58,296 bases of DNA from Chrysochromulina tobinii (taxonomy: Eukaryota; Haptophyta; Prymnesiales; Chrysochromulinaceae): positions 1 to 58,296 of the forward strand of contig JWZX01003314.1 in the NCBI GenBank assembly GCA_001275005.1, given 5' to 3'. Positions 2 to 56,639 of the stretch are shown piece after piece. The translations under genes and the position numbers were made by a program. Each line of letters starts with the position of its first letter. Positions within the stretch are counted from its first letter, which is position 1. The notes under the pieces were generated by a model that saw only the letters and a list, made by a program, of their open reading frames with translations, was not told the origin of the DNA and did no database searches.

Positions 2-3000
2 GCGGCAGCGGCGGAGGCGGAGGCGGAGGCGGAGGCCAATGCCAAGCCCGTCGGCATCGGGCGGCCGATGGATGCGATTGAGAGCCTCGACCCACCCAAA
101 TATAGGACGTCTGTGGAGCGAATGGTCGATGGGAACCGCCCGCTGATTGTACGTCTCCGTTGCGGCCTCGACTCCGAGCAGACGGGCATGATCGCGCCGG
201 GCGGCAAGCTGCATGTGCTAGAGACGCGCCTCGCGGCCGACGGCTCCCTCCGAGCCTTGGTACTCGTCGACGCGACCCAGGCGACCGTCGTGATGTCGCC
301 GCGCGAGCGAAGCGGCCATGCTCCATACGACGCTCCGCCCTCGCCGCGCTCGCCACGGCGCGCGCGTGTGCGCCCGACGGTGCCGCCGGACTCGTGGGTC
401 GCCGAGGGTAAGTGGGATGAGGTCGAGACTTTCGACCCCCTCTCTCCATTCTCGTCCGACTCGTCGCCGCACGCCCTGAGCAGCTTCAGTCCGGTTGGGA
501 CCCCTTACGGCACCTCACGGACGCACCGAGCGTCCGTCGAGCTCTTCGCCCGTGATTTCGGTCCGCCGGTGGCGCCCTCCTCCCTCCGCGGGCATGACGG
601 GCACCACGCCTTTCGACGGACGCGAGAGCTCTCGGAGCCCAAACCGCCTCCAGTTAGCGTCGTGCCGGGCGCGAGGACGCGCAGCCCCTCGCCCGCCCTT
701 CAGACGGGCGCCGTGTCGGGCGAGCCGTTGGACGAATTAACAGCGGCAGTCGAGTCGTTCACAGCGGACGTGCTCAGCCTCACGCACGGCTGGGTGACCG
801 CCGCGCGTAACGGGCACGAGCTGCTGGCGCGCATTCACCAGGGTATCGACGCGGGCGCGCGCCGCCATTCGATGGAGCTCTGGGAGCGTCGCAAGGCCGC
901 GGACCGTCTCCTCTCTAAGGTAGTGCAGCATATCGCGTCCGAGGACCGCGGCACGGACGACGCCGGGTCCAAGAAGCTGAAGCTGCACACGGCGGACATG
1001 GCTGAGCGGCGCGCCGGCCCGTCCCTCGCTCACGAGCTCACCAGCATGGCTGAGGATCCAGACGGCATTGGCTTCGCATTCGGTGGCGCGGATCCGGGCG
1101 TGTTGCACGCCCATGGGCAGGTGAGCAGCGTCCTCTGATGACCTCTGAGTGTCCTCCCGATGACCTCTGATTATCCCTTCGGACCGGTATTGCATGCCCA
1201 TGGGCAGGTGGTCAAATTCCATACTGTCCGTTACTCGATAGGGCTCGCCGGCCGTTACTGGCTGCACGTTGGCCTGCGCCAGCAGGAGACCCGGCTGCTC
1301 GGCTCGCCTTTTTTGCTCGAAGTGTCGCCTGGCGCAGCCCACGCGCGCTCGTCCCCCTTGCCGGCGGACGCACTCCCTCTCACTGGGCTGGTGCGTCCTC
1401 TGAAAGGAGGAGAGGTGAGTTGTGAACTGCTCGTGACGCTCCGCGATCGTATGGGGAATCGGTGTACGAGCGGTGGCGCGGCGCTGACTGTGAACACCGT
1501 GATCAACGTCGCGGGCGAGGAGAAGAAGAAGCTCAAGGAGAACGAAGCGGCCGCCGTCACCAACGTCGTCAGCAAATGCGTCGACAACAAAGACGGGAGC
1601 TACCGGCTTGGCTGGACCTCCCAGGTGGCGGGCGTGTACTCGGTGTCGATCACCATCGACAACGTTCACCTGGTCGGCTCTCCGGTGATGATGACCTTGC
1701 AGGCGGGCCCGCCCGAGATTGACCAGATTCAAGTGTCCGGCGACGGCACCCAGCAGGCGCAGGCGGGTAAGCCTGCCCTCGTCGTGCTCAAATGCAAGGA
1801 CTTTTTCGGCAACGTCGCCTCGACGAGTGGCTCTGCGATCTTCTTTGGGCTCCGACTGCTGATCCGCGACCCCAAGGAATCCAAGGTGATTGCCACTGAT
1901 GGCCACTGATGACCACTGATTGCCACTGATCGTCCATGATTGCCACTGACTGCCACTGATGACCACTGATGACCACTGATTGCCCCACCCGAATCGAAGG
2001 ATGCGTGGAAGGACACGTTCCACACTTTCACCTCGATGGCCTTCGAGACGACGGTCGTCGAGGACCAGTACCAGATCTGGTACAACGCGCAGCAGGCTGG
2101 CGATTTCGCGCTGCATCTGTGGACCGACTCGGTGGCGGGCGGCAAACGCAAGCTCCTCCCCGGCTCGCCGTTCAACGTGCGTGTCACAGGCGATAAGGCG
2201 TCCGCCTCCGGCTCCTTTATTCGCGGCATTGAGGCGTACAGTTACGGCCCTGCCGAGGCGTCCGACCTCCTCGCGGTCGCGTCGGTGGCGCGGAAGCGTC
2301 ACGGCAGCACCGAGATCCCCGAGATGCAAGTCAAGGCTTCGGTCGTGGCGGGCGATAAGCTTCAACTCTTCCCACAGCTGCGCGATGAGTTCGGGAACGC
2401 ATCGTTCGCGTCCGACCAGTCGCCGTTCGTCGCCTTCGTCGAGCACCTCACGGGCGCCGAGTCGGGCACCCGAAACGACGTGCCGCTCAAGCAGCTGCGC
2501 GATCTGGGCAAGTATGAGGTGACACAGGAGCTGACGAAATGCGGGCTGCACCGGCTGAGCATCCTTCTCGACGGGCAGCATGTGGGTCAAGTTCCGGACA
2601 AGTTGCCACCAGGGATGGTAGGCTCCCCAGTCTACATCCTCGTGAGCCCCGCGGCGCCGGTGGCGAACAAGTCGATCCTCAAGCCGCCAGAGGAGCCGCC
2701 CACTCAGCACTCGACATGCACGCTCACTCTCGAAACGTTTGACAAGTTTGGCAACCGCATGAACAAGGGCGGCGCGACGATCGCGGCGCGCACGGTGGGC
2801 ACCGGCTGCTCGCCCATCACCGTCGTAGATGGCAAGGACGGAACGTACTCCCTCTCGTTCTCGTGCTCGATCGTGGGCGAGTGCAAGGTGGTCGTGCGCC
2901 TAGATAACGTCGAGATGCCGTCGCTGACCGTCGGGTTCGTCAAAGGCGAGGACCTTGAGAAGGATTTCGAGAAGGAGAAGGAGCCGGAGAAGGGGAAGCC

Positions 3001-3043: not shown

Positions 3044-3505
3044 ACAAGGAGAAGTAGATATCCGATTCCTCGGATTCATCAGAGATGCAAAGCGAAGACG
3101 TCAGATTCATCAGAGATGCATATCGAGCAGAGGTGCTCCACTCATCCCATGGCGCATGCATGAGGCATGTATGTGCGCGTGATGGTCGACGGTGTCAACG
3201 TGTTCAAACTCGGAATGTGGCTGCTGGCTCGCGATGCAAGCGGGAGTGCAATTGTGCAGGGTCCAGGGAGTAGCAGCTAGCACAGTCGGAGTATCATAGT
3301 TGGCAAGGCTGGCCGCTACAAGCAAGGCAACGAGCGCTAGCGGGAGGTTTTTGTAGCTTGTACAGGTCCGTGTGTGTGTGTGAAAAGTACAGGCTGCAGG
3401 AATCCGTGGGCCGAGGGCCCCGCGCCATCTCACAGCCACGCAGGGGCGTCGTTTTGAGCGGATTCGCCAAACCTCACGCGGTCCGAGAGTGCGTGAATCG
3501 GCCAA
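3044..3505. other. Intergenic spacer
   Basis: No convincing gene. Just after the filamin stop there is a small direct repeat, ATTCATCAGAGATGCA twice (about 3073-3121), next to GATATC-rich sequence. The rest probably holds the filamin 3' end and the promoter of the next gene, but no promoter motif is recognisable. Confidence 0.5.
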
Positions 3506-3898: not shown

Positions 3899-4631
3899 AT
3901 TAGGTCGTACTTTAGGTTGCGTGCCAGTAGCTTCTTCCGGGAGCCGGATTGCAACGCCTGTAAATGATAACTTGCTGCCAAATAAGCAGAAATGTGGCGC
4001 GGTCCTGTCGCACAATCGACAACGTTGGGGTCAATGCACATCCGTCATCCCATATGTGTCGTGTGTGATCCGATCGGCTGATCGCGCCCCCCGGGGGCCG
4101 CGCGCAGTGCGTCGGGCCGGGCGGTGAAGCCGGGCTGCGCCCGACAGGTCGCAATATTGGTCGCAATATTCTTGTTCCGCGGCCATGCGACGAGCGTCCC
4201 GCCCGCGCCGACCGCTGCGAGCGGGCCCGTAGCGTACGTGTGTACGAGAGGTGGATACGCGCCGGCATGGCATGGGCGTGGCGCGGTACGCGCCCGTGCG
4301 GCCCTGCAGTTGTACAACGATCAACGTGGATTAAGCGTGCCGGATGACGACCGGAGCACATGCCGGAGCAGCGCCTTCGTGGAAAAGTCACTGAAGTCAG
4401 AGGTCAATCTTGAACACTTCGCAGGTGGAGCTCCGCTATACGACCACCTGAATCCATGCCTGAATCCAAATCCTATCGGCGCGCGACACCTGTGCCTCCA
4501 CCCTCCACTGGCACTGCCTCCAGCGCTTGTCGACCCCGCGACCCTCCGCACACCGTACACGCCGGACATGGTATAACTCCGCTAAGCGTGAAACGGACCG
4601 CAGCGTAGAGCACTCATGTTACCTACCCCTT
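3899..4631. other. Intergenic spacer between convergent genes
   Basis: The 3' ends of the small membrane gene and the ZIP-like gene face each other here. A 150-codon frame at 4124-4576 shows no domain or convincing composition and I do not accept it. No RNA gene or clear repeat seen. Confidence 0.45.
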
Positions 4632-7600
4632 TTAATCGGAGCTCAGCTCGCTACCGATGGCCTTCGTCAACAGCGCAGCTAGAAAGCCGAAGAGACAAGC
4701 GACGCCGATCATGCTGCCGCCGTGCTCGAAGGCCTCGGGGAGAACAGTGGAGGCGATCATCGTGAGCATGGCACCGCCGCACATGCCCTCAATGCCCGCG
4801 ATCGTCATCTTGATGCCGTCGCTCCGCCCCTCGGGTCCCACGGGAGGGAAGGCCAGAGCTCCGAGCCCTGCTCCGATGCCAGTGCCGATGAAGATGGCGG
4901 TCCACATGAGCATGATGACGCGAGACTTCATGCCGTAAGAGGACATAATGGCGGATGAGGACATGGCCTCGGGCAGGTTGGCGAGGAAGACGCCGACGAC
5001 GAAGGTGATGAGCGAGGGCATGTCGCCCGCGTTAGCGAGGATCCCAAGCACGAAGGACTCTGGGATGCCGTCCAGTCCGATGCCGAGCCAGATCATGATC
5101 GCCGCATTCTGTGGGGGGGATATGGGAGGGGCAGGGGGCAGGGGGTAGGGAGAGATGGGGGAGATGGGGGAGATGGGGGATAGGGGAGATGGGAGGGGCA
5201 GGGGGTAGGGCATGGTGCACGCCCCCCGTGCACATCCATATTGGGCGTCTGGCGGTAGCGGAGGAGAGGCGCTGTGTAACAGACAGAAGCTCTGGGCAGA
5301 CCAGAGGATAGCGGAGGAGAGGTGCGGGGCAGCTGTGTAGTAGCACTCTGACGCGCCTCACCTTGCCGTTGCCGCCGTTGCCGTGAGCATCTTCAACGTG
5401 CTCGTGCAACTGCTCCTCGAGATTCTCGCGAGATCGCAACCCTTGCGTCTCGTCGCTATGCAGCTGGAGATCGTCGAGGAGGTTGGCGATGTGCCTGTAC
5501 AACTTCTGCGTCTCAGTCGGCGGCAAGTCGGCGCCCGTGGCGAAGGGCATGAACTGGCCCAAGATGCGCGCCTGCTTGGATGTTTGGATGGCTCCGCGCG
5601 CCATCAGCTTGATCCATCCCGCGTCGCTACGTGGCGCCTCGACTTCGGGCTCGGCCTTCCAGCCATAATCGGCGAGAGAGGGATAGCCGTGCAGGCACTG
5701 CTTCAAGCGCGGTTTGGTGCATCGCAACGAGAGGCCCCGCATCTCGCCGCCGGAATCGAGGTCCTGCACACGGCTTTCGGCGAACCTCAGCGACCTGTTG
5801 ATCGTCGACGCCCTCCGACTGCGCGCCGGGTTGGGCACAGGCTTCTGTTCGCGAAGGGCGCCAGCGACGCCGGCCAGAGAAGACGAGGAATCTTGGCGCA
5901 ACCCCAAATCGACTTGCGCCGCCAGATCCTTCGGCTTGGCCTGGGACTCTTGCCTAATATGGGTCTCTTGAGCCTTCTCTTGCCTAATATGGGTCTCTTG
6001 AGCCTTCTCTTGCCTAATATGGGTCTCTTGAGCCTTCTCTTGCGCGCGCCCGAGGGTGTTGTCTTCAAAGAACCGAAGGCGCTTTGGCTGGGCCGTGGGC
6101 GGCGGCTCTCCCGAAGCCCCCCGAAGCTCCCCCGAAGCCCCCGAAGCCCCCGAAGCCCGTTCCCGCTGTGCGCGGCGTTTCGCGCCGCCGGGCGCGTCGT
6201 CACCTTCGCCGCTGCGCCGGCACACGCTGCCCCGGGACGCCATAGAGAGCCGTTGGAGCTTCTTTGAGCTCCTCATAAAGCTCAAGCCGCGAGTGAGGCC
6301 GTGATGGAGCGAGAAGCGTGCAAAGGAAGGGGATATGGGCTTGTCTCCCCCCTCAGGCGAGCCTCCCTGTGGCCCCTGAGCCTCGGGAGGCACTTGTGGC
6401 GCGAGCAGCCGTCGAAGCAGGTCTGGGGGCCAGCCGGACGGAGGCGGCGGCACATTGCCGTTCGGGGCGGGCGGACCATTGAGGGGCGAGGCGAAGGGGG
6501 GTGGCGAGACGAAGGGGGGGAACCACGCCAATCGCACCTGATCCGAAGCGGCCGGATCAGGCGAGGTGGACGCCCGATACAACGCGACCGCCTCCTTGAG
6601 TGGCTGATGCTTGGCGGTGAGCCGATCGAGGTCGGCGCGGGCGATCGTCAGGATCGTCGAGGGCACGCGCACGACCGCCTCCACGCGCAGCTCCTGCCCG
6701 TAGATATAGTGATGCAGCCCTAGGATGTCGTTGGCGCGAAAGGCACTACTAGTCGTCGCATTGAGCTTCAGGTCGACGATGCCGAGCAGAATGAGCACCA
6801 TCGGGCTCTTGTCGTCGATCGCCTCGAAGAGAACGTCGCCCTTGCTCACCTCCGAGTCCTGCATGCACCCCGCGAGCTCGGCGAGCACTGCCGGCGGAAG
6901 ATCCCTAAAGACGCGAGTGTCGCGCAACCGGGCGGTACCCATCTCTCTCATGTGGCGACGCACCTGATGAGGGAGGCAATCAGAGGTCATCATCAGAGGT
7001 CAATGGGAAGGGCGGTACCCATCTCTCTCATGTGGCGACGCACACGCGGATGTTGAGAGACCCACTGATGCAGCGATCTCGATTCGATCTGGAGCACCTT
7101 CGTGTTCGGGCTGCTCGTGGTCACTTCACACGCGGCGGCGATCCCGCTCAGCAGCCCCACATCGCCGAAGATCCGGTCCTTCGACAAGTAAAAGTCCTCC
7201 CTGGGCCTCGTGTCGGCGGCGGTGGCTGACGGGTCGGTGTCCTCGTCTTGGTACATTGTGACCCGAACGGAGCCGCGCAGCACAAAGAAGATGACCGCGT
7301 GGTGGTCGTTCACGCCGTCGTGCTGGTCGGCGTACGAGAACACCACGCTCCCCGTCTTACGGTACACCTTGCGGCGCATCTGATGCGTCAGCTTCTTCAG
7401 ATCGCTTGTCGGCAGGTGGTGGAACATCGGCACGATCTTGAGCCGGTCGATCAACGCCACCTTCGTGCGGTTGATCGCGCTCATCATGCCGTGCTTGAGC
7501 GTCGACCGCTTGCGCATGAAGGCGCCCTGATCGTTCAGCACCTTGTTGAGTGCGCTGAAGAACACCCCACCGAACACCGCCGCAGCAATCGCAATCAGCG

Positions 7601-7874: not shown

Positions 7875-8704
7875 CGCACGCGCCGCGCCTCCCGTGCACA
7901 GTGTGGGTCAGTGGGCCCGCCACAATTCCTCAAAACAGGGGGAGTTGAATCGAAACTTGTTTTGGCGAATTGAAAGTTACATGCCCCCGATCTTTCGCTT
8001 GCTTGCTTGCTTGCTATCGCCATAGGATATAGCCTCCGTAGAATATAGATAGCGTGAAGGTGTGCTGCGGCTACCGCGCACCAACATAAACCAATTAGAG
8101 GGAGTGCCCGGGTGCGGCGGCGTGGCAATGCGGCGTGGAGTGTGGGCGCGCGTCGGGGCTGGTGTGCGCTGTGGGTCGGTTTGCGGCGTTTCAGGCGACG
8201 GCCGGACGGCGGGACCAGGAGATGTGTGTGATATGTGGCTTGTCGCTTGTGGGGGAACATGTGGGGGAAGGAAAAGGCACAAGTCGGGGTCCCGTCACCT
8301 CTGCTCCTCTCGCTTTATTGTAGATATTGGCCGCGTCGCGTTTTGAATGTCGCGGGCCGCGTCGCCGCGAGGCGAGGCGTGATGGCCTGAGACACGTGAG
8401 GCTACGTGAGGCTCGCGATACATCGGTTCTGGCGGTCCGTTAGGCCCCGTTTGTAGCGCCCCCCGTCCCGTCTGGTCTGCTCCCGGGACACAACGCGCCG
8501 CCCCGAGGTCGGGTGCTCTCCCGCACGGCAGCTATGGACACGCACAGCACAGTCTGACTGCAGAGTTCCGCCACGTGCCCCCACCACGGCTGACAGGCCT
8601 GACATCGCACATGAGCTGCACGCACGAAAGCTGATGATGAGCGTCCGAATTGACGAATCGCTGATGATGAGCGTCCGAATTGACGAATCGCTCGCGTGCG
8701 CTCC
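7875..8704. other. Intergenic spacer with a short tandem duplication
   Basis: It holds the upstream region of the ZIP-like gene and the 3' flank of the next minus-strand gene. A 30-bp unit with TGATGAGCGTCCGAATTGAC is present twice head-to-tail at about 8631-8691, and a small TTGC run at about 8000. No RNA gene or promoter motif recognised. Confidence 0.5.
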
Positions 8705-15579: not shown

Positions 15580-15595
15580 GGGCGATGGGCTCGCG

Positions 15596-16665: not shown

Positions 16666-19600
16666 ATGGTGCCAGGCCGCTATGAGAGCCTGGGTTGGGC
16701 CACAGGCCAGAGCAAGGCGTGGCAGGCTCATGCTTCACAGCAGGAGCTCGCGCAAAAGTTGGACGACGACCCAGCGCCACGACGTACACTCGCACGCCCG
16801 CAATCTGCGCCGTCACTTCGCAACGCGCCGACGCTGGGTGAGTCCGCCACACCGGAGCGACCGGCGAATCAGCGCACTGAAGTTCAGCGCCCAGGGACGG
16901 CCAATGCAGCCACGCGCAGAGCTACGCAGCTCAGTCGGGCTCCGAGCGCGCAGCAGCTCGACCCACCTCCGCCTCCGCCGGAGCAGCAAAGGCCAGCACC
17001 ATCTCTGCCGAGCAGTGCGTCGACGGTGATGAGGCCGCAACTATTGGCGGTTGCAGGGCCCGCATCGGCCCCGGCACTCCTGGCCGCCGAGGCGGCCGTT
17101 GCGGCCGTCTCCTCCGCGCAGTCGAGCAAGCCCAAGCACCGACCACCACTCTTCCATCGGCCCGCGCCGCTGCCCAGCTACAATCCTCGCGGTGATCCAT
17201 TCATCCGGCCCGGGCAGCGGCTGTCCGCGGCGTCGTCGGCGGCCATGCATCCGCTCGCTGACCACCTGCGCCCGCCGGGCGCCAGCTCCGCCGAGCCACC
17301 GCCTCCGAGGAGCATTCAGAGCACCCGGCCTTTTTTCCGGGCTGCCGACGACGGCCGTGGCGGAGGCGGCATTAAGGTGAATGTGCGTGAGATGCTGATG
17401 CTGCGCAAGCAGGCGGATGCGGGGCGCTCGCGCCCGCCCGCGCACATCACCAACCCTCCACCGCGCCGACCCAAGGACAAGCTGCCCGGTACGAAGCGTG
17501 CCCAAATGGAGGTTTTGTCGGCGAGTCTGGACTACAAGGAGGTCATCGCCCGCGCCACGCGGGAGAGTCATCGCGGGAGTCGGTTCGTGCTGATTGAGAA
17601 CAATCCGCTCATTGAGGCTGCGTCGCTGCCGACGAACTTTCCACGAACTTTCCACGAACTTTCCACGAACTTTCCACGCACCCCAGCTCGCATGGAAGTC
17701 GATGGCTGTGAGGGAGCGGTCGGCGACGAGGTCGACGAGGAGGCGGAGGCGGAGGCGGATTGGGTCGCGACGCGAACAAAGTACGCGCCGCCAACGAAGT
17801 GGGCCGCTGCGCTCGACGACTACTACGACGAGCAGCACTCCACTTTGGGCCAACGCTCGGCTCCTCCCTCGGATCTGCTTGAGCGCTTTTCGTGCGCGTC
17901 AGCTGCCAACGCCGCCGACGAGGGGTGCGGCACGACGGACGCATTCCGCAGCACGGACGATGCCGCGGCCGAGGCAGCTGAGCGTGTTGACCTCAGTGGA
18001 CTGCCCTCCTTTACCTTTGGCGAGCTGCGGATGCTTCGGCGCTGCTTTGGGCACTCTCGCGAGGGAGCCGCTGACTACGGTGGCGTTGCGAGTGCGGCCG
18101 CGGTACGTGAGGCACTCCGGCGGGTCTGGCCGCAGCTCAGCGCCAGGCAGCTGGCGTCTCTCGTCGACCAGATGGCTGGCAGCATGCCTGGGGGGGGATC
18201 AGATGGAGGGCGCGAGACGGATTTGGTTGGGGAAGGTGTGCCTGAGGCGAGCCTGACGTATCGATGCGTGCTCGACTTTCTCGCGCGCCATTGCCAAAAG
18301 CTCGCGATCGCAATCGATGAGCGCACCGCACCACTCTGCAACACGTTCGCTGAGCCGCCCGACACGGCGCCACCCGCCTGGTACACGTTGCATGCGGCGC
18401 CGCTCAGCCAGATCCTCGAGCTGCCCGCCACAGCGCGCTGCAACCGGCACAAGTTGCTCACGCACTCGTCTGACGGCGTCATCGGGCTGTGGAGTTCATC
18501 CTCGCTCCGACCGAGTACCACCTTCAGCGTGCGCCGCCACGGGCAGCTCGACGGGGTCGGGATGTGGAATGCGAACGAGGACATGCTCAACGTTGCGCGC
18601 CGTCCGCTGTGCGCCGCGTACGTGGCGCAGCACGAGCTGGCTGTGCTCGGCTGCGTCGATCGTCATCTGTACCTGTATGACTGCGAGCACATTGACGGAA
18701 CTGGTGAGCGCTGTGCGCATCGAGTGTGAGTGCATGCTGATTGCATCTCTGAGCACATGCTGAGTGCCCCCTTCATCAGGTGAGCTCAGTGCACATCGAG
18801 TGGGTCATTGGCCGCTTCCCGCTCTGTGCGTGCCTACGTGCTTGACAGCCTTTCTGGATGGCAAAGGGCACGGCAAGCTGGCGATTGGCGACAAGGAGGG
18901 CGCCGTGACGATCTGGGACTCGGAGGCGCTCGTGGCCGGCGCCAAGGGTCTCGCGCGTGGCAAGCGCCCAGCTGGGGGTACAGATGGGGCATGCGTCTTC
19001 CGTCTCCCCAAGGCCCATGCCGATTGGGTCACTCAGCTCACGTACACGACCTCGTTATTCTCGGGTGCCCTGCTGAGCTCGGCGATGGACGGCGTGATCC
19101 AGTGCATCGACCTTGGCGCGGGGGCGGTCGGACGCTCGCTTCGAGGGCATACGAAGGGTGTCTATACCATCGCCATGTGCGAGGCCTTTGGAGGCGGCAA
19201 GCTGGTCTCAGGCGGCCTTGAGCGTGATCTGTATGTGTGGTCGCTCAACACTCCCAAGCCGCTCGCAGTGCTGCCGGGCCACCGGGCGCCCATCAGGCAG
19301 CTGGCCTCCGACGACGACTTCCAGCAGGTGATCTCCCTTGATTCGCTCGGAGCGATGCGTGTGTGGGACTTGCGCATGATGCGCTGCGTGCAGTCGCTCA
19401 ACGCGCCGCCGGCCGAAGGCGAGAATGAGCCGCCGCCACCCATATTAGGCAACGGGCTCGCGGAGGGTGACGTGGGCGCACCCTCGCACAACTCGCTGCG
19501 CACAGCCGTTTCGGCGATCTGGTATGACCGGGGCCGGCGCAGGCTCATCGGCGGCCATCAGCACCTGACCGCGTGGCACTCGCACATGCCCCCCTCCGAC

Positions 19601-22600
19601 CTCTCCCCGCCGAGCTCCCCTCGCGCGCGACGGAGTCAGTCCTCCTTGTTGGAGCCGCCGGTCCAAGTACGGCTGTCGCAGGCGAATGAGGCGGCCATCG
19701 AAGAGGCCGAGGCGGCGCTCAAGGCGGCCAAGGCGGCGGCAGCCCGGCCGAGAGCCACCACAGCGAATTTCCCCACACGGACCCTGGGCCGTGAGGCGGA
19801 GGCGGCGGCAGCGACGACCAAGGCACCGCCCACCAAGGCGCCGCCCACCAAGCCGCCGTCCTCCTCACCGGACGACGAGGACGGCGACGGCGACGAGGAG
19901 AGCGGTGCCGTAATGGGCGGTGCCGAGGATCAGCCCGCGGCGGCGCCGTCCCTGCCCTCTCCGCGCACCCTTGCCCAGATCCGCCTGGCAACGACCGGTA
20001 CGCCTCTCACACAGCTCGTGTACTGATGACCTCTGATGACCTCTGATGGCCTCTGATGGCCTCTGATGACCTCGGATGACCTCGGATGACCTCGGATGAC
20101 CTCGGATGACCTCGGATGACCTCGGATGACCTCGGATGACCTCGGATGACCTCTGATGACCATCCTCATCAGGCACGCCTCTCACTCGGCTCGTGTACGC
20201 GCACGCGTATGGCTTGGTGGCTGTGGGCGACGCGGCTGGGGTGCTGAGCGTCTGGGCGGTCGCGACGGGGCAGCTGGTGCGCTGCGTGCGCGATGCCCAC
20301 GGCGGCGCTCCGATCACCTCGCTGAGTACCGACGCGCCCGGCCGAAGACTCATTTCCGGTGCGCACGACGGCTCGGTGTGCACGTGGACCCTGGCAACGG
20401 GCTGTGAACTCAGCTGCCGCCTCGCGCCGCACGACGTGGGCGACGGCCTGGGCACCGAATTGACGACGCTGATCCACCTGAGCGTGGCGCGAGGTGCGAT
20501 CTCGTACGTGCTCGGGAGCGGTTGGGGGCGGCGCGTCGTCTTGTGGAGGGATGAGGTGGCGCCGCAGGGCGTCTGCGCCGAGCCGGGCGGCGGGCCCGAG
20601 TGCGTGTGGGCCTCCCCCCCCTCCCACACGGATGACGTCCTGTGCATGGCACACCACGCGCCTTCGACGCTCGCGACGGCGCCTTCGACCCTGGCTACCG
20701 GTACAGCGGATGGCGTTGTGGCCTTATGGGAGCTCGATACGAATGCATTGAGTCAGCATGGTGGCATGGGCCGACCCGTCCAGGCCCTCGACAAAGGAGG
20801 CACCGCCTCGTTGAATGCGATGCGAGTCAAGCGCACGTTACGTGTGCCTCCGGCGGCCTCGGTGCCGGGCGCCTCCTTCGCCGCCGCCGTCTGCTCGTCG
20901 CCGCCGATAGCCTTAAACGCGGATCTCGTCGATGCCAGTGCTGTGGAGTGCGTCTGCTGGCTGCCCTCGATCGCGCCGCCGCTCGTGCCGCTCGTCGCCG
21001 CGACAACCGACGGCCGGCTGCTCGTGTGGGGAGCCGTGACGCGCCTCCAACCCGGCCAGCCCGCCATCATCGACCTGCACGAGTCCTTGGGCCATTGCGA
21101 TGAGGACGCGCTTGTCGCTCTCGTGACCGATGAGCTCAACACGATTCTCGTGAGCGCCGACGGCGGCGGCACCATTAAGGTGTGGAGTCTGACGAAGCTC
21201 GCCGCCCACCTCGAGCGCAGCTACCAGTGCTCCGTCCTGCGGGCCGGGGGCACTCCTCCAAGCCCAGCCAAGGGCGGCGGCTCGCATGCCGAGGCCACCG
21301 GCTCCACGCTCCCGATGGCCTCCCTCGGGGAAGCGCTCGCCTTCTGGCGCGTGCGAGATGGCGGGCTGGTCGCGATGGAGCTCGTGCCCTCCAGATCGCA
21401 ATCTGGATCTCCCCTCGTGCCCTCCAGATCGCAATCTGGATCTCCCCTCGGGCCCTCCAGATCGCAATCTGGATCTCCCCTCGGGCCCTCCAGATCGCAA
21501 TCTGGATCTCCCCTCATCCTCACTGGCGCGGCCGACGGCACCACCTGCTTGTTCACGCTCAGCGGCGCGCTCGTGGGCACATTTGGCGCCAATGCGATCG
21601 GGTGGCGGCTGGACGATCCCAACACGTATGCATGCCGCACCGCCCAGTCGCCGAGGCCGTTTTGGCAGCGGCGCCAGAAGCACCTCGAAGACGCGAAGCT
21701 GTCCAAGCGCGCGCAGCGCCTGTGGGGATCCGCCAGGGTGCTCGCGCCACCCCTGTGGGGATCCGCCAGGGTGCTCGCGCCACCCCTGTGGGGATCCGCC
21801 AGGGTGCTCGCGCCACCCCTGTGGGGATCCGCCAGGGTGCTCGCGCCACCCCTGTGGGGATCCGCCAGGGTGCTCGCGCCACCCCCGGCGTCGGACGAAG
21901 ACGTGATGGCGTCCGCCACGGCGCTGGCCGTCGCGACGGCGCTCGAGGCGGCGGACGCGCCCACGACGACGCGAGCTGCAGGGCTCCATCACAACTCCAC
22001 CGCGCGCGCGGCGGCGGCGGCAGCGGCGCGCGCGGCCGCGCTTGTGGCGGTGGCGGCGCCGGCGGCGGTCTCAGAGGCGGCAGCGCCAGCGGCGGCGGCA
22101 GCGACAGCGGCGACAGCGGCGGCAGTGCAGCGCGCTTCGAGCGTCGCCTCGAGCGTCGCCAACCCTTCACCGCCCCCCTTCCGCTCCGGCGTGCGTTTCG
22201 TCAAGGGGCCGAGTGCCGCCGGTGGCGTACCCACCCGTCGTGCCGACCTGAGCTCCACTTGGGAGAATACTCTGCATGCGCAGTCGGCGCTCAGCGGCGG
22301 CGACCTGGCGGCGGCGCAGGCGGCGGCGGCGCAGGCGGCGGCGGCTGCGCATCGTCAGCACGTGCTGCGCGCCAAGGGCTTCGAAGTCCAACGGCCGCCG
22401 CAATCAACGAATGAGATTCACAGCTTCCTTAAAGGGAAGTCCGGTGCCCAGCTCGGCGCGTCGTATGAGGGGGGCGTGGGCCCGACGGTGGGTGCATCGT
22501 ACACGGCCGCCCGCCCACCCGTCCCTCAGCTGCATGCAAGTGCTCACCACGGCGCCTCCTCCCTCTCCCCACAGGTGGGTGCATCGTACACGGCCGCCCG

Positions 22601-45999: not shown

Positions 46000-46138
46000 G
46001 GCCGCGTTCGAAGCGGCAGGCAGGGCAGGTAGAGCGGCAGGTAGGGCAGGTAGAGCAGGTGGTAGGGCAGGTGGTAGGGCAGGTAGGGCTGGTGGTAGGG
46101 CAGGTAGAGCAGGTGGTAGGGCCGCGTTCTAAGCGGGG
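46000..46138. repeat. Minisatellite flanked by a duplication at a gene end
   Basis: About 100 bp of GGTAGGGCAGGTAGAGCAG-type units lies between GGGCCGCGTTCGAAGCGG and GGGCCGCGTTCTAAGCGG. The second flank contains the stop codon (TAG, minus strand) of the EF-hand gene. Confidence 0.85.
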
Positions 46139-49100
46139 ATCGGCAACATGTGCGCGCCACCGTCGCCGCGCTGTCGCAGAGTGATGTTCACCGCATAGTT
46201 AGCGTCTGGAAGGCGTGTGACAACGGCGTGGAATGGGGCCGCCTCCGCCTCCGCCTCCGCCTGCGCCTGCGCCTCCACCTCGCCAAAGGTAGCCTCGAAG
46301 AGGGCAGCCGCCAAGAGCTTCTCCGCCAGCGCCTCCACCTCCGCCTGCGCCTCCACCTCCGCCTCCGCCAGCGCCAGCGCCTGCGCCTCCGCCTCCGCCT
46401 CCAACTTGCCAAAGGTGATCTCGTAGAGGGTATCAGCCAAGAGCTCCTCCGCCGCGTTCGCTTGCAAATCGGGCTCTGCTGCGACCTCGGGCTGTGCTTC
46501 CACCTCGGCCTGTGCCTCCGTCTCGGGCTCTGCTGCCACCTTGGCCTGTGTCTCCGCCTCCGTCTGTGTTTTCGCCTCGGCTTCCAGATTGCGATCTGCC
46601 GCCTCTGCTTCCAGATTGCGATCTGCCGCCTCGGCTTCCAGATCGCGATCTGCCGCCTCGGCCGCCGCGGATTCGAAAGGCGAGGTGTCGCGAGCACGCC
46701 CGATTGCGCTCGCAACAGCGTTCACAACAGCGCTCAGATCGTCGCGAGCACCGGCGAGCGTGTGAATAGGCACGCCATGCGAGGCGAGCCACGGTCCGAG
46801 CTTTGCATCGGCACCACGGCTCGCATCTCCGGCTTGGACAGCGAGCAGCAGCGGCCCCGCTGCAGCGTGCAGCTTGTGCAGCTGGGAGCCCAAGCGCGGG
46901 AAGTTGGAGAGGATCACCGGCGGGGGGGACATTCGAATCGCATGCAGCAAGGCGGGAAGTAGCTGTGGGAAGCTCGGCAGCCCTCCCTCGCTGTCCAGCG
47001 TGATCAGCTCGGCACGACGCGTGATCAGCTCGGCGAGCGTGCTACCGACGGCGGCGTCGGCAGCCTCCTCCTCCCCATCAGCACCTTCCCCATCGGCCAG
47101 TGCCTCCGCCATCTCTGCCGCCACGCCAGCGAGGGTCTCGACATCGATCAACGTGCCTCCACAGCTGGTCGCTAACCGTCGACTCGTCTCTGCATGTTCA
47201 GACCCATAGACAAGGACGGTCGGCGAGGAGCACGGCGGCGGCGGCGGCGGCGGCGCGGGCGCGTCGCCGTTGCCGAGCCCGTCCCCGACAATCCGAACCG
47301 AGTAGTTGTCATCAGGTCCGAGGGTGATGACGGCCTGGAAGGGGGAGGGGGAGGGCGCCATCCGAACCGAATAGTTGTCATCAGGTCCGAGGGTGATGAC
47401 GGCCTGGAAGGGGGAGGGGGAGGGCGCCGTCTCGGGCGGCTCAACGTCCGACGCGTTAGCAGCCGTTGGCTCGACAGGCGCCGTCTCGGGCGCCGCCTCA
47501 CCGGTCGGCTCGACGGGCGCCGTCTCGGGCACCGCCTCACCGGTCGGCAGAGGGGTCTCCCGAAAGGCGATGCCCGCGGCACGCATGGCTTCCAACACGG
47601 CGCTCACCTCCGCCTCCGACGCCGTCGGTGCCCTGTGAACGTGAATGCCGCAGGCCTCGAGATTGCGATTCAAGCCCTCGTCCGTCGCGTCGCTGAGATC
47701 GCCAGCGAGCACCACCAGCGCCAACGGCCCCCCGATCGCCTGCTGCATCTTCGTGACGTGGCCGACCATCCGGGGATAGCCGTTGAGAACAAAGGGGGGC
47801 TCTCGCACCTTGATCGCCTGCAGCAGCACGGGCAGCACGTGCTTGAACTGGAGTAGGGCGCCGCCTGCCTGCATCGCAAGCAGCGCCGCGCCCTCAACGG
47901 TCGGAATCTCCGCCGCGAGATCGCAGAGCGCGGCCAGATCGAGCAGAGTGCCGCCACAGCGCGCTGCCACCGCCGGGCAGAGCGATGCATGCAACTGGCC
48001 AAAGAGAAGCACCACGGGCGCGGCGCCGTGATGGGCGCCGTGATGGGCGCCGTGATGGGCGGGCGCCGCGAACGCGACGGGCGCCGTGTCGGGCGCTCGT
48101 GTGTGCTCCAACGGCGCTCGCGACGGCGCTCGCGACGGCGCGGCTGTGTCGGCCGAGGCAGTGCCGGCCGTCTCAGGCAACTCAGCGACAGGGAGGATGC
48201 GAAGGAGATACTGCCGGCTGCCGTCGGCATCGTCCACCGGCCCGATGCGGGCCCGATATGGGAGAGGAGAGGGGAGGACGGTCCCTGTGGGGAGGACGGT
48301 CCTTTTGGACGTCGGGGAGGCGGCAGCTGGGGAGGCGGCAGCTGGGGTCGAAGCGCTCGTCGCGGCAGCCGTCTGCGCCTGCGCCTGCGCCTTCGCCGCC
48401 GCGTCCGCCGCCGCGCGCGCGGCTTCAGCTGCTGCTTTCGCGGCCGCCTTCGCGGCCGCCTTTGCGGCCGCCTTCGCCTCTGCCTTTGCCTCCGCGCGCG
48501 CAAGCTCGGCGGCGGCCTGCGCCTCGGCCGCATTCGCCGCCGCGTCCGCCGCCTCGAGCGCTAGCGCGAGCGCGTCCGCGATGATGGCGCGGGTGGCCGC
48601 CTCATCCGCCTCCGCCGCCAGCATCTTCTCGAGCTCACGAGCCTCAGTGGCGGCCGCCCGATGGTGTTCCACATCCACCTGGCCGCCTCTCCACATGGCC
48701 GCCTCGGCCTCGGCCGCCGCCTCCTCCGCCATCTCCGCGCGGTCACTCGCCTGCCTGTGCTGCGCCTCCTTCGCGTCCGCGAGCAGCTTGAGCTCTACGG
48801 CGCGCGCGCGCGCGGCCTCGCCTCGGGGAGTGGGCGGCTGGTCGCCCAAGATGGCAGAGGAGCTGGCATCGGGGTCTGGTGGGAGGACGGCCTGGGAGGG
48901 GGAGGGGGAGGGCGCCGTCTCGGGCGGCTCGTCGTCGGCGGCGCCGGCGCTCGGGCTCGCCATATTAGGCAACTCGGTACTCTCCAAAATAGGCAGCTGC
49001 ACGAGCCGAATCGAGCCGTTGACGAATTCGTCCCAGGTGAGATCTCCCGAGCCATCGGCGTCGATCTTGGAGAACATCTTGCCAATCCCTTTGAGGTCCT

Positions 49101-51947
49101 TCCCTCCAAAGTATTTGGCCATCACCTGCTGGTTCTTATGGACCGCTGAGCCCCACTCCTTGCCGCTGACCTTGCCGTCGCCGTTCTTGTCCAAACGATC
49201 CCACAGGGCCTTGAGCTCGGCCGCCCCTTGTTGGCTCTCGAGGGCCTGAGCGAGCCGCACGCTCCAGTCCATTTGCTGCAGCGCCGTCTCAAACTCGCCC
49301 CACGTGAGGTCGCCCGAGCCGTCCGCGTCGAGCTTCTTGAACATCTGGCCCACCTCGCCGATGGTGAGCCCGCCGAAGAAACGCCCCATCAGCTTCCAGT
49401 GCTGCCCGATAGCCTTGCCCCACTCCTTGGACGAGACGACGCCGCTCCCGTCGGTGTCGATTGAGTGGAACAACCTCCGCAGCTCCGCCTTCCCCTCCTC
49501 GCTCTCAAAGGCGTCGATGAACGCCTTCATCGGCGCGGCGAGAGAGCCCGCCGCCGCCGTACCCAGCGCCGTCGTCGGCGCTGCGGGCGAGCCTTGCGGT
49601 TCGCTCCCAGTCTCAGGAACGTCGGGCGGCGGCTGCAGAGGGGGCGGCGCGAGTGTGCCCGACTCGGCGCTCGGCACGTCCATATGAGGGCTGCCCTCAT
49701 CGCCCTCCTCCGCCCACACCGAGTTGGGAAGCGCCGTCTCGAGCGGCGGTTTCGCGTCCCCCGCTGCGCGAGCGTCGTCCTGAGCGTCCTCTGCGCGTCG
49801 TCGCGGGCTCCCCGGCGGCGCCACCTTGGGCGGTTCCACTCCCGGAGGACGGCGCATCTGGAGGATCCGCTCGAGCTCGGTCACCTGTGGGGAGAGGGGG
49901 GCAATGACGCCGTGGTGAGCACGTGCATGCTCGGGGCGCATCTGGAGGATCCGCTCGAGCTCGGTCACCTGCTGCACCAGCAGCTCGGGGGTAAGCGAGC
50001 CGCGGCTGCCGAGGGTGCGGCCCGCGCCCACCACGGCGCCCACTCCTCCGCCGGCGCGTCGGCCGTTGCCCGCCCAAGAGGTCACACCGAGCTTCGCCTG
50101 CGCGAGCTCGATGAGTTTGGCCGCCTCGTCGAATCGTAACGTCGACACGTCAAAGTTCGCGAGCGAGCCGCCGCCCGCGGGCGCCGTGAGCTCCAGCAAG
50201 ATACGCAGCACGCGCGTCGCTGTGGAGGCGTCCACCGTCGACGCGTCGGGCGAGGGCGTCGTCTTGGGCAGCCCGGCGCGAGGGAAGCTCGCGCCGTCTT
50301 GGGCGTCGCCCATCGCGCCGTCTTGGGCGTCGCCCACCCCGAGCGAGCTGCTCGAGAGCGCGGCGCTCAGCACGGCGCTGCCGGATCCGCACCCATTTGA
50401 CGAAACGCCGCGCGGGTCACCCGACGGGCCGCTCGCGTCGTTCTGGGCGCCGAGCTGCCGGGCGGCCTGCAGTGCAGGCGCGGCGCGGCGCGTGCCCTCC
50501 CCTCGGCGGCCCCCCTCCCCCCGAGGGCCCGCCAGCTTCGGCGCCGGCTTCGGGGCGCGCAACCCACCGCGCGCCATGGGCGACGCGGGTCGGGTGCCCA
50601 CAAGAGGACGTGTGAACACCTCAAGAGGACGTGTGAACACCCCGCTGGCGGCATACCCAGCGGGCGCCGTGGTGGGCGCCGTGTGCGGCGCCTCGGCTGC
50701 GCCGCCGGCGCTCGCCGTGGTGCGACCAAAGATGGCATTCGGGGGCTCTACGTAGCCTGAGACGAAGCCGGCTGGGGTCGTTCGGTGCGGCAGGGCGTGC
50801 TGCGTGCGGAAGGGCGCGAAGGCGCCGGTCGGCGGCGGCTGCTGTCCCGCGTCTCGGGGCGGCGAGGAGCCTGTCAGATGCCCGGTCAAGTGCGCCGTCG
50901 AGTGCTCGCGTGGGGAAGCTTCGGGAAAGTAGAACTCGAAGCCCCCAACCGTTGGCGGCGTGAGGCGCGCTGGGGCCGTGCGCCAGAGCACACCGACGGG
51001 CTGCTGGGACTCCTTCACATCCTGCTGCTGCTGGCGCACCTGTGGGGAGAGCAGGGCGCCGTGGTGAGCACATGCATGCTGGGACTCCTTCGCATCCTGC
51101 TGCTGCTGGCGAACCTGCTGCTGGCGCTGAAGCTCGTGGCGGTGCGCCCGCGCCACCTGCGCGCAAGTAGGACGCATGCATTCAGGCAGGGGCTCTTTGC
51201 AAGCAATCACCTCTGCCTCCGTCGGCAACCTCATCTCCCACGGCGCATGCAATCAGAAGGCAGGGGCTCTTTGCATGCAATCACCTCTGCCTCCGTCGGC
51301 AACATCTCCCACGGCGTAGGCGTGATGGCCGTCTGGCGGTCATCCCACGCGGGCTTGGCCCTGGGGCGCGGCAGCACGGGCGCCTTGCGCGGCCGTGGCA
51401 CCTCCGTCAGCGTCGCGTGCTCCGACAGCCTCACGCCCCCGACCGCCGCCGTCCGTGCGCTGCTAGCACCGAGCCGCTGGCTCGCCGCCGCCGCCTCGCG
51501 TACAGGGCTGTCAGCGCTCGCCGGATCCACGGGCCCCGAGGCGGCAGAACGCGGGCGCATCGCGCCGTTCTCGCTCGCCAGGAGCGAGCCCTCGGTCCGC
51601 GTGCTCGAGCCGCGCGGGGCGCTGTACTTGTAGCGCAGCGCGTCGGCGCTCGCCGACGTGTGTGCGAGCAGGTCGCCGAGGAGTGCCGCCGCCTCCGCGT
51701 CAGGCATCAGCTCCCCGTCCAGGAGCCGCGAAAGCGCCAAGTCCGCGCCACGTGCAGTATGGCGAACGGACTCGGCCGTCTGGAAAACTGATGCGAGCAG
51801 ATCGTCCTCGCGTTTGCGCGACTCGTCTGAGTGGCGTCGCTGCCGCTGCTGCTGGAGCGCCGCCTCCGTCTCGGCGAGCTTGGCCTTGAGCGCCGCCTGC
51901 CTCTGCTCGAGGACGGTGATTTCCTTTCCTGGCACGGCGTTCCTCAT
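46129..51947 (-). CDS. EF-hand protein with two degenerate adenylate-kinase-like domains
   Basis: Exons 51947-51285, 51210-51115, 51039-49969 and 49884-46129 (all phase 0) give 1,861 aa. The start is a coiled-coil-like helix (VLEQRQAALKAKLAETEA), then a disordered region. Four EF-hands at about 750-900 (DTDGSGVVSSKE, DADGSGDLTWGE, DKNGDGKVSGKE, DADGSGDLTWDE) have complete Ca2+ loops. A long Ala/Glu/Lys helix follows. Two adenylate-kinase-like domains sit at about 1231-1380 and 1500-1670: NGYPRM and SNFPRL stand where kinases have DGFPR, but the P-loop is lost (LLFGQLHAS, LVYGSEHAE), so catalysis is unlikely. A short strand motif (A.I....D.NY.V.I) precedes each domain and ends the protein. A calcium-responsive scaffold, possibly ciliary, is inference. 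Confidence 0.78.
46588..46670 (-). repeat. In-frame 27-bp tandem repeat, three copies
   Basis: Encodes ADR(D/N)LEAEA three times after the second kinase-like domain. Two copies contain AGATCGCAATCTGGA, the same 15-mer as the WD40-gene repeat at 21384. It leads into a Glu/Ala-rich helix. Confidence 0.9.
49885..49968 (-). other. Intron 3 of EF-hand gene (family B, frame-neutral)
   Basis: 84 nt, GTGACC...CTCCCCACAG, phase 0. The first 34 nt are a perfect copy of the next exon start (GTGACCGAGCTCGAGCGG...), then GCATGCACGTGCTCACCAC. No stop, 3n long; retention adds 28 residues including HARAHHG...LSPQ. Confidence 0.75.
50617..50645 (-). repeat. Short exonic tandem duplication
   Basis: CCTCAAGAGGACGTGTGAACA occurs about twice head-to-tail in exon 3 of the EF-hand gene, encoding VFTRPLEVFTRPL. 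It is in frame and adds seven residues. Confidence 0.8.
51040..51114 (-). other. Intron 2 of EF-hand gene (family B, frame-neutral)
   Basis: 75 nt, GTTCGC...CTCCCCACAG, phase 0. The first ~38 nt duplicate the next exon start with two differences, then GCATGCATGTGCTCACCAC. No stop, 3n long; retention adds 25 residues including HACAHHGALLSPQ. Confidence 0.75.
51211..51284 (-). other. Intron 1 of EF-hand gene (AG|GT tandem duplication)
   Basis: 74 nt, GTGATT...GGCAGAG, phase 0. A ~54-bp segment spanning GCCGACGGAGGCAGAG|GTG is repeated; the first copy gives the donor, the second the acceptor. Only about 20 nt separates the copies, including TTCTGATTGCATGCGCC, a family A-like trace. Confidence 0.9.
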
Positions 51948-53992: not shown

Positions 53993-54414
53993 CTATGCAA
54001 GTGAGGGCGTAGTGAGGGTGAGTGAGCACCCGGTCGTCAATCCTCGGGTCTTCTCATATTTTCGGGGCCGCCGAAAAGAAGTTCCTGTTGGAAGTTCTGT
54101 AGAAAGTTCTACGCCGAACTGAGGCACGGATGCATGCATGCATGAACCCCGGTCTATTCCTCGCGCGCTTCCTTCGTCCATTGGTTCCACGTCATTTTGA
54201 ACTTCTTGCGAAAGGGTCAGTTGAATCGACTTCTTGCGTCACTTCACACTTCTCGTGTGATCGCCACGAGCTCGAGCACCGGCTGCCTTGTGTGGCCAGC
54301 GGCCCGACTCCGCAGCTCGTCTGCGGTGGACGTCTGCGGTGTGGCTGTCGGCCTGGCAGGTGACTTTGCGACCGGGTACTCGTCAAGAGCCGCATCCTCG
54401 AGCCGAACAAGCCG
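53993..54414. other. Divergent spacer
   Basis: About 420 bp between divergently arranged genes, so likely two promoters or one shared. A CCTGGCAG|GT acceptor-like site at about 54359 could mark an upstream exon of the next gene, but the downstream frame has a TGA right after it. Confidence 0.4.
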
Positions 54415-56639
54415 ATGTGCAGCCTCGGCGGTGCAGCCTTGGAGCTTCGTACGGCCAGTGCAGGCACGTGTCACGCGACTGGGGCTGACGGCATCCGTGT
54501 ATGCTTTGAAGAGACCTCCCGTGATCCGGGTGGTGGCTATGCCGGCGTGCAGGGCGGTCTCGTGGGACGTGTGGAACTGCAGCCGCTACTGCACGCTCAT
54601 CGCAACACGACGACCGGCGCCGACGACTTGTGGTGGCTTCTCCGCGTGAGTGGCCCGCATCCGCAGACAGTCCTGTTTGATGGCACGCGGGGCGGCGATT
54701 GGGTCGCCCGCTTTCGGATGTGCAGCCCGGGCGTGTACACGCTCTACGTTCGCGAGGTGCTCCGAGCGCCGTGGGCGCAGTGGCGCGACGACCGTTGGGA
54801 GGAGAGGCCCGGTACGCCTCCGTGCGCGCACGGCAACTGGACTGCTGGGGTCCGATTGCGCCGGTACGCCTTTCGCTATCGTCCTGCTGCCTCTGGAGCG
54901 CTTGGTCAATTGCTTCGTCGCCCTGCCTCTTGCAGCTCCGGGCTATGGGCATGGTCCCGCAGCGCGATTGAAGAGGCGTGCGACCCGTCAACCGGTGAGC
55001 CGTCCGGCCGTGCGCGGGGTGAGCGAGCCCGAGCGCTGTCCCGAGCGCTGACCCTGTTGGAGGAGGTTCAACCGGTCCCTTATCCAGAGCATGGCCTCTT
55101 TGGAAACGCAAACGTGAGCGGCGCGCTCGCCTACGTGGAACGCGAGCGAAGCAGCGACGGTACGCTCCCATATTTGGAAGGAGGGACGCTCCCTAATTTA
55201 GAAGGCGACGTGCTTCCAAATACGGCTAGCCAGAGGAGCCAAAACTGCAGCAGGAGCAAAAACTGCAGCAGGAGCAGGGCGGGCACCGCTTGCCGGAGGG
55301 GTAACGACACGCTCATTTGCCTCATGGGGGACAGCCAGATGCGCACACTGGCGGATGGGTTGCTCTCGTCGAGTGCTATGTTAGGCAACAGCTGTGCCGA
55401 GCTCGAGGCCGCAGCCGACATGACGACCTCGATGTCGGCCGAAGGGTCTCTCGAGGCCGTAGGGTCTCGCCGCGCCGCCGCCGCCGCCGCCGCCGCCTGT
55501 ACCGGCCTACGTCAGTGGCGACGACTCTGCCCGAAGGGCACCTCCTCGCAGCCGCCCGGGCGTCCGAAGCTCAAACAGATGCCCTGCCCGAAGAATGCCC
55601 CTTCTTCCGCCGTCTGTCAACGAAGCCTCTGTGACGGCGTCCGCCTGCACTATCTGCGCGTCAACTACGGGGATGAGCTCATCAGCCCGTTTCCCCACAA
55701 GCGAGCGACACAGAGCCTCGCGGAGCATGCCGCGCAGCACTGTACGGCGATCGTGCTCAACACGGGCCAGTGGTGAGTGCTCTCGACGGCGCCCTAATGA
55801 CGGAGTGCCTTTTGATTGCACCGCCAAGTGCCTCCTCTGAGGACCCTCTTCCCCCTATCAAGGTGGACTCCTTCGAACTGATCGCCCTCTGAGGGGCCTC
55901 TGATGGCCTCTGATTGCGTCCCTCATCAGGTGGGCCTCGTGGAAGCGGGCGTCTGCGCTACTGATTGCCCTGGATGAGCCTTGATTGCCCCTCTCATCAG
56001 GTGGGCCTCGTGGAAACCGTCGAAGCCCGAAGGGGCGCAGGAGCCGGCGCCACCGGGCAGGTATGCGCGCACCCATCGCGAGCGCTACCTCTCGCTGATG
56101 AGCCTCTGATGAGCCTCTGATGAGCCTCTGATTGCGTCCCTCATCAGGTACGCGCGCACCCTTCGTGAGCGCTACCTCTCGGTGCTACAGGACGCTGCAC
56201 GCCGCTACGGCACCCACCTGGCCTTTGCCGCCACGAACCCCTATCCCCTCAATGTGGGAGGGCCCCAGTACGCGTCGAGGCGCTCGAAGCCATATGATAT
56301 GGCCGCATGCAACCCAACCGCACGTGAGCGGCGCTACCCGCACGTGCTGCGCGAGTATAATCGGCTTGCTCGGCAGGCGTGCGCCGCGCTGCGCATCCCA
56401 TATCTCGACATGTGGGAGATTGCGCTGCCCATGTTCGACATCAGTGGGGACGGCGCTCACTACGCTGCGGACGCGACGCCGGTCGGACGAGCGCAGGTAC
56501 GTTGATTGCATGCTGATGGCCTGCCTTGCATGCAAGTGCTCACCACGGCGCGACGCCGGTCGGACGAGCGCAGGCGGTGCGGCTCTTGCACTGGCTCTCG
56601 TCGCTCCCTTGCATGCAAGTGCTCACCACGGCGCCCTAG
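54415..56639 (+). CDS. NXPE / PC-esterase-like SGNH protein
   Basis: Exons 54415-55772, 56001-56060, 56148-56496 and 56574-56639 give 610 aa. An N-terminal Ig-like beta domain (about 10-170) is followed by an SGNH-type catalytic region: LICLMGDSQMR (GDS serine, about 304), VLNTGQW, then DMWEIALPMFDISGDGAHY with the Asp-x-x-His pair. This order matches NXPE and related PC-esterase proteins of the secretory pathway, which modify or bind glycans. No signal peptide is visible at this ATG, so a 5' exon may be missing. Three introns are duplication-flanked. The last 11 residues and the stop come from a family B element. Substrate unknown. Confidence 0.75.
55773..56000 (+). other. Intron 1 of PC-esterase-like gene (three stacked GT...AG units)
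   Basis: 228 nt, GTGAGT...CTCATCAG, phase 2. It contains internal AG|GT junctions at 55862/55863 and 55929/55930, so it reads as three head-to-tail GT...AG units. GTGGGCCTCGTGGAA begins both the third unit and the next exon; GTGGACTCCTTCGAA begins the second. Confidence 0.85.
56061..56147 (+). other. Intron 2 of PC-esterase-like gene (family A)
   Basis: 87 nt, GTATGC...CTCATCAG, phase 2. The first 34 nt match the next exon start (GTACGCGCGCACCCTTCG...) with three differences. The body is TGATGAGCCTC units. It splits an Arg codon from YARTLRERYL. Confidence 0.9.
56497..56573 (+). other. Intron 3 of PC-esterase-like gene (A+B composite)
   Basis: 77 nt, GTACGT...GAGCGCAG, phase 0. Here the duplication is of the upstream exon end: 24 bp ending GGTCGGACGAGCGCAG is copied at the intron's 3' end and supplies the acceptor. 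The body is TTGATTGC...TGATGGCCTG followed by CCTTGCATGCAAGTGCTC. Confidence 0.85.

Follow-up and report, generated by a model that had tools for sequence, protein, structure and literature searches.

Half-intron elements with long target duplications as a likely source of introns in Chrysochromulina tobinii

The window analysed here is a stretch of 58,296 nucleotides (nt) from the haptophyte Chrysochromulina tobinii (contig JWZX01003314.1, termed C2155 within the 53.15 Mb assembly of 2,253 contigs), and most of the introns checked in five of its genes are bordered by a direct duplication of exon sequence. We consider it likely that these introns are made by "half-introners", i.e., elements that carry only the 3' half of an intron and whose target duplication supplies the 5' half, and that they represent an introner-type intron gain. 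Direct support comes from the anatomy of the introns, the multiplicity of the elements, the statistics of the duplications, the reading frames at several introns of element family A and two sites that are uninterrupted in relatives.

According to the proposed mechanism, a short repeated element would bring only a branch-point-like block, a pyrimidine tract and a terminal CAG, and would insert into an exon, where approximately 13-41 nt of the target would be duplicated on either side. If the duplicated stretch starts at GT, its upstream copy would become the 5' half of the intron, providing the donor and the spacer ahead of the branch point, while its downstream counterpart would stay exon. If the stretch ends in AG, the reverse layout would work. 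Splicing would restore the original message, so that the protein would remain unchanged. Duplication and element presumably arise in a single event. In the layout seen most often, the duplication provides the donor and the element provides the acceptor: a duplicated exon start with the donor GT and spacer is followed, sometimes after a filler, by an element with a branch-point-like block, a pyrimidine tract and AG.

Two families of elements take part. Family B consists of GCATGCAAGTGCTCACCACGGCG, followed by a variable, mostly pyrimidine-rich spacer (4-23 nt) and CCCCACAG, and family A is composed of CTGAT-rich tandem units with the end CTGATTGCSTCCCTCATCAG. CTCAC and CTGAT fit the usual branch-point consensus, and the conserved blocks may act as branch points. 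At up to 2 mismatches the B core is present at 1,991 places in the genome (953 + 1,038), the B core plus CCCCACAG at 245 + 248 places and the A motif at 505 (259 + 246), and the reversed-pattern controls yield 0/0 in each case. At B sites strong similarity begins 8 bases before the GTGCTCACC core, and the part upstream of it is largely site-specific. Terminal inverted repeats are not obvious on reading, no formal scan having been made. The duplicated stretch does not belong to the element itself, since the WD40 exons, searched against the genome, have no second copy, yet the element of WD40 intron 1 that follows the first copy matches 33 other genome places, 19 of which begin exactly at its first base (window 18727). 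A further 20 stretches with B cores that lack the exact CCCCACAG tail include candidate introns whose tails are altered, units in tandem and apparent in-frame insertions. Tandem arrays of whole units, each comprising duplication and element (45-82 nt, up to 4 copies), occur at L042, L039, L103 and window 56572-56745.

The check in the window covers 13 introns (filamin, two; ZIP, two; WD40, three; EF-hand, three; PC-esterase, three), and the names filamin, EF-hand and PC-esterase are carried over from an earlier, sequence-only reading. In-register duplications, defined as ungapped matches that touch the boundary and are shifted by exactly one intron length, score at least 15 in 10 of the 13 introns (scores 15-43, lengths 21-46 nt). 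Random length-matched GT..AG pairs in the window reach 15 in 33/7,000 cases and 12 in 37/7,000, and part of the pairs that reach the threshold probably sits on real introns or tandem repeats.

The 5' part of the intron is a copy of the next exon start in ZIP intron 1, WD40 introns 1-3, EF-hand introns 2 and 3 and PC-esterase intron 2. WD40 intron 3 (22488..22574, plus strand; 87 nt, open in frame) carries a B element, and its duplication 22487-22519 / 22574-22606 is perfect (33/33), with element plus filler at 22520-22573. An A-like element is found in WD40 intron 1 (18704..18779, plus strand; 76 nt; duplication 18703-18726 / 18779-18802, 21/24), and WD40 intron 2 (19998..20172, plus strand; 175 nt; duplication 20000-20023 / 20175-20198, 22/24) harbours an A element with 10-nt tandem repeats; both have stops in all three frames and a length of 1 modulo 3. 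On the minus strand, ZIP intron 1 (6964..7043; 80 nt) holds an A element, its intronic copy 7010-7043 matching exon 6930-6963 at 34/34 positions. EF-hand intron 3 (49885..49968, minus strand; 84 nt; duplication 49935-49971 / 49851-49887, 37/37) and EF-hand intron 2 (51040..51114, minus strand; 75 nt; duplication 51077-51117 / 51002-51042, 39/41) are open in frame and contain B elements. PC-esterase intron 2 (56061..56147, plus strand; 87 nt) contains an A element and has the duplication 56058-56094 / 56145-56181 (34/37).

In filamin intron 1 and PC-esterase intron 3 the 3' part of the intron is a copy of the preceding exon end. The former (1121..1207, plus strand; 87 nt) has the exon end duplicated at 1103-1123 / 1190-1210 (20/21) and takes its AG from the copy; the latter (56497..56573, plus strand; 77 nt) contains a B core in the reverse layout, with the exon end duplicated at 26/26 positions, the donor from the element and the AG from the copy. 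EF-hand intron 1 (51211..51284, minus strand; 74 nt) has its boundary within the duplication: a stretch of ~59 nt is duplicated (51258-51316 / 51184-51245), its copies are separated by ~12 nt and contain both splice sites, and the in-register match is 45/46. Below the threshold are filamin intron 2, with a weak in-register match (9/10), PC-esterase intron 1 (55773-56000), which taken whole has no in-register duplication (score 4), and ZIP intron 2 (5109..5361, minus strand; 253 nt), which is without duplication (score 3) and, as an ordinary intron, serves as a contrast within the window. A nested A unit (55911..56015, plus strand) with an offset of 71 and a 31/34 duplication that includes an element end is located at the 3' end of PC-esterase intron 1. 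The sequence-only reading had described the same directions of copying and the lack of a duplication at ZIP intron 2, and its view that most introns are flanked by exon duplications holds for the 10 of 13 checked. Its count of 14 out of 16 is not reproduced: filamin intron 2 and PC-esterase intron 1 fail in register, and the kinase intron and the remaining introns lie outside the check. In an ion-channel gene (window 36252-36379), a perfect 48-nt duplication surrounds a B fragment and results in two identical candidate acceptors CACCACAG.

Beyond the window, B sites were sampled from 60 stretches at the start of the list of core-plus-CCCCACAG places (five places in that part, of which four lie in tandem pairs, are not included). 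Together with the window and 20 element-blind stretches these yield 71 B sites, of which 62 are isolated with enough flank. An ungapped duplication above the control maximum (11, among 310 mismatched pairs) is present at 47 of the 62; in a gapped comparison with free start, where 1,240 controls reach no more than 14.5, 41 sites score higher, 33 of them with a duplication that begins at the first exon base after AG. Among the 47 sites, 35 match from the first exon base or from at most 3 nt before it, with GT at 32, GC at 2 and GA at 1. For family A the comparison covers 30 sites, 19 of them isolated, and 11/19 exceed 190 controls. The B duplications are 27.8 nt long on average (standard deviation 7.5, range 13-41) and thus account for about one third of a mean B intron of 80.3 nt (standard deviation 7.3); the filler averages 10.3 nt and the element between the copies 42 nt. 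The copies are identical at 16 of the 47 sites, and the minimum identity is 81%. No motif was seen at the 3' edge of the target-site duplications (TSDs) of B sites.

Duplication and filler lengths trade off at B sites (Spearman -0.75), and therefore the duplicated stretch seems to double as the needed spacer. This trade-off fits a minimum donor-to-branch-point distance; selection may act on spacer length, and the long duplications may partly be a survivor effect.

Metagenomic relatives show two sites of the WD40 gene without the insertion. The protein P0011 (ENA), 82% identical over 81% of the query, is contiguous over WD40 residues 704-1498 and passes the site of intron 2 without insertion. 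P0031 (ENA) and P0032 (JGI) carry GGVGPTVGASYTAARPPP across the site of intron 3, which equals the residues of the spliced product; P0032 is 99% identical over 55% of the query and begins at an internal valine. Element insertion thus appears to have created introns at these two WD40 sites, as judged from metagenomic proteins. P0012 (98%), in contrast, terminates after reading into the copy that belongs to intron 1; that strain accordingly possesses intron 1. At the IK/VWSL position of the gene P0011 loses frame, and CAPPQ is where P0031 starts at this very position, which looks as though the relative carried an intron missing from the window gene. Taken together, the sites picked by their element with duplicated flanks, the similarity between sites, which mostly starts where the duplication ends, and the two WD40 insertions missing in relatives bear out the earlier proposal of a target duplication plus an element. 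The genome scan that it called for, run on samples of element sites, is positive (B 47/62, A 11/19), and the range of copy identities agrees with its suggestion of several ages.

A number of observations weigh against this reading. No duplication above control is detected at 15/62 B and 8/19 A sites, and the 47 B sites include a redundant pair (L044/L061) on contigs that look near-identical. CCCCACAG is part of the B search pattern, so the precision of the 3' end of B elements is partly fixed by construction. The filler (0-43 nt) is not accounted for by the model. That of L071 corresponds to a shifted part of the duplication (24/24); among 19 fillers of at least 10 nt, the forward local match exceeds all 50 shuffles of the same filler only in L071, L063 and L066, and the filler of L082 scores 11 on the reverse strand, the shuffle maximum being 10. 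In an element-blind scan of 258 kb, GT-AG was found at the 5' edge of 14 duplications compared to 6 and 3 for two control dinucleotide pairs, a weak excess. Four of the 33 matches of the WD40 intron-1 element begin 10-26 nt before the duplication end. The comparison with P0011, P0031 and P0032 is at the protein level and takes them as mechanical open reading frames (ORFs), because P0011 ends in an apparently shifted frame and P0031 begins with non-homologous residues; the argument falls if they are spliced gene models. Moreover, the lack of WD40 intron 3 in relatives is evidence of insertion, not of splicing. At L103 the B core is apparently an unspliced in-frame insertion, with a 23-nt duplication around a 25-nt core at an offset of 48. 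Such in-frame insertions among the B cores suggest that insertion comes first and that splicing then selects.

To the same side belong the frames at typical B introns. The three of the window, WD40 intron 3 and EF-hand introns 2 and 3, have lengths divisible by 3 and lack stops in one or more frames, and without splicing the EF-hand ORF 46129-51252 continues through introns 2 and 3; taken alone, these open frames make translated insertions conceivable. Multiples of 3 are also found at 19/47 B sites, all 19 open in some frame, and an open-frame test over 150 + 150 nt around the 47 B sites does not discriminate (spliced 29/47, shifted controls 49/94, unspliced 24/47). Together with the in-frame minisatellites in the same genes and the B cores that resemble in-frame insertions, these data are what could be said for the view that the segments are not introns at all, rather translated insertions, coding minisatellites or assembly artefacts. 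We regard this as quite improbable. WD40 introns 1 and 2, ZIP intron 1 (80 nt) and EF-hand intron 1 (74 nt) have lengths indivisible by 3 and stops in all frames, P0011 encodes the joined product at WD40 intron 2, and the reversed-motif controls are all zero. Removal of 18704-18779, 19998-20172 and 22488-22574 from the WD40 gene yields 2,020 uninterrupted residues. The main frame-type evidence for splicing of B elements comes from the 47 B sites with a duplication, 28 of which have an intron length indivisible by 3. Splicing at element sites is therefore predicted from frame, length and homolog evidence, which is weakest for the three typical B introns of the window.

The comparison with published systems draws on parts of each source cited. 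Introners are known from Micromonas, Aureococcus, dinoflagellates and others (Gozashti et al. 2022, PMC9860276). Like those, the elements described here are repeated, would create introns in many genes and have counterpart sites in relatives that lack the intron. They differ in their TSDs, which are variable and 13-41 nt long as opposed to the 3-9 bp given for earlier introner families (PMC9860276), as well as in the short conserved B block of ~24 nt plus pyrimidine tail; both families behave alike. The census in that study applied a filter by which similarity must start, at each of the two ends, no more than 5 exonic or 10 intronic bases away (PMC9860276). B and A introns fail this demand for intron-intron similarity at both exon boundaries at their 5' end, and half-intron elements should be missed by the main census filter (PMC9860276). 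Similarity at both boundaries is rather a detection criterion than a biological definition.

Amoebophrya introner elements resemble the present ones in having many copies and direct repeats over the exon/intron borders, yet these repeats measure 3-5 nt, inverted repeats of 8-20 nt are present and the splice sites are mostly non-canonical (PMC7789003), whereas here GT-AG introns with long direct repeats prevail. Daphnia neointrons, too, carry at one end a copy of the terminal part of the exon that adjoins their other end; however, the repeats span 4-12 bp, and the parts of the source considered describe no single repeated insert family (PMC4202315). Shorter duplications in these three systems are in line with what the sequence-only reading had stated. 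A survey of direct repeats at splice sites reports repeats at many intron borders, 4-30 bp long with a mean of 11.4 and mostly diverged (PMC11782384), compared to a mean of 27.8 nt and 16/47 perfect copies here. Two further papers, PMC12730881 and PMC12768974, mention introners without reference to long duplications in the parts considered. An introner with duplications this long was not found in the literature searched, which did not extend to the supplement of TSD calls of PMC9860276. Half-intron elements with long target duplications are real and introner-type, but differ from the introners described.

Tandem genomic duplication is an accepted route of intron gain, in which a duplicated exon stretch provides the splice sites (PMC3443670), as it does here. 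Plain tandem duplication of an AGGT-containing exon without any mobile element can nevertheless hardly account for the introns as a whole. EF-hand intron 1, where little separates the copies, is closest to direct adjacency and may have arisen in this way, but in A and B introns the copies are set apart by a repeated element that is common to hundreds of sites.

How the half-introners insert is a separate question. Staggered double-strand-break repair would involve offset nicks with overhangs of tens of nt, a fill-in that duplicates them and end joining that captures element DNA or complementary DNA together with filler. The variable TSDs, the presence of filler and the lack of a visible motif at the TSD 3' edge agree with this route. 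In mouse cells paired nicks with 43-nt 3' overhangs lead to tandem duplications (PMC8355091), and Daphnia neointrons have been ascribed to staggered breaks, even though their repeats are far shorter (PMC4202315). Insertion of the same families hundreds of times requires a mobile source and not random filler, however, and we hold break repair to be possible at somewhat less than even weight.

Retroposition appears rather unlikely. Here, element RNA, perhaps an excised intron ending in CAG, would be copied into nicked DNA by target-primed reverse transcription, with the machinery provided in trans by a long interspersed nuclear element (LINE), and variable TSDs and ragged 5' ends would be its signature; both are seen at B sites. 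The window itself holds a LINE-type ORF (26945-35026, plus strand), intact-looking and 2,694 residues long, with the 3' end of the element at ~35156, which suggests that target-primed machinery exists in this genome. The ORF has an endonuclease match (PF03372, 21.1 bits, below the cut-off of 24.5) and, by eye, motifs like those of reverse transcriptase (RT) and RNase H; the Pfam search calls no RT in it, and RVT_1 has 26 matches in the genome. The 3' part of the LINE matches 45 other places, with 40 of 221 candidates scored, and 30 of these share their last base and are truncated to varying extents at the 5' end. The LINE ends in CAG repeats, and a common 3' tail beyond CAG was not seen. As in LINE or short interspersed element retroposons, TSD length is variable at the introns, but the LINE duplications visible by eye in 5/24 copies are only ~7-11 nt long, far below those of the introns, and none of the 24 copies exceeds the control maximum (38, inflated by the LINE's own repeats). 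The resident LINE was accordingly rejected as mobiliser. Relatives of this LINE-type element are present in metagenomes.

Outside the genome, the A motif occurs in 0 contigs of the viral collections and the B core in one, and the B core in 0 contigs of prokaryote genomes, all in collections that may omit records very near this genome. The viral hit L151 is an IMG/VR contig that terminates in a B core with acceptor (4496-4517) and has ORFs that look phage-like by eye; it is perhaps a chimeric contig or a virus carrying an introner. Within the assembly, contigs C101 and C235 look near-identical at three shared element sites, and their coordinates differ by 71 nt in length between two of the sites, possibly the presence or absence of one introner.

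Regarding gene context, the GC content of the window ranges from 54 to 72% in 2-kb steps. The WD40 piece scores above the WD40 cut-off of Pfam, and the ZIP product lies just below its own (33.6 versus 35.1 bits); the spliced PC-esterase piece has no match in a Pfam search, and hence its name remains that of the sequence-only reading. A profile search for the light-harvesting family PF00504 finds 58 matching places across the genome, as would suit an alga that is probably photosynthetic. The WD40 gene harbours 33-nt in-frame minisatellites (21719-21885 and 21381-21515), and its unit LWGSARVLAPP is present five times in the window compared to once in P0031 and P0032. At 8630-8692, beyond the ORFs studied, a 30-nt unit is repeated in direct tandem with no element between the copies (33 nt matched).

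The origin of spliceosomal introns is a long-standing question, and intron birth in this genome seems recent enough to read its mechanism, since 16 of 47 duplications are perfect and one site is uninterrupted in a protein that is 99% identical over the aligned part. The spliceosome needs a donor, a spacer, a branch point and an acceptor, of which an insertion need supply only half. The half-introner model predicts that surviving insertions have a duplication that starts with GT or ends in AG and a branch point at a sufficient distance. It also indicates what the published introner census would overlook, and mechanism as well as prevalence are testable. Tentatively, and with slightly less than even confidence, we propose a class of mobile elements with a conserved unit of ~24 nt, essentially a branch-point module, that would spread with ~15-40 nt of target duplication and turn the duplicated exon into half of a new intron. 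As the duplicated half differs at each site, such half-introners would escape end-to-end similarity searches and may form a hidden share of intron gain in eukaryotes.

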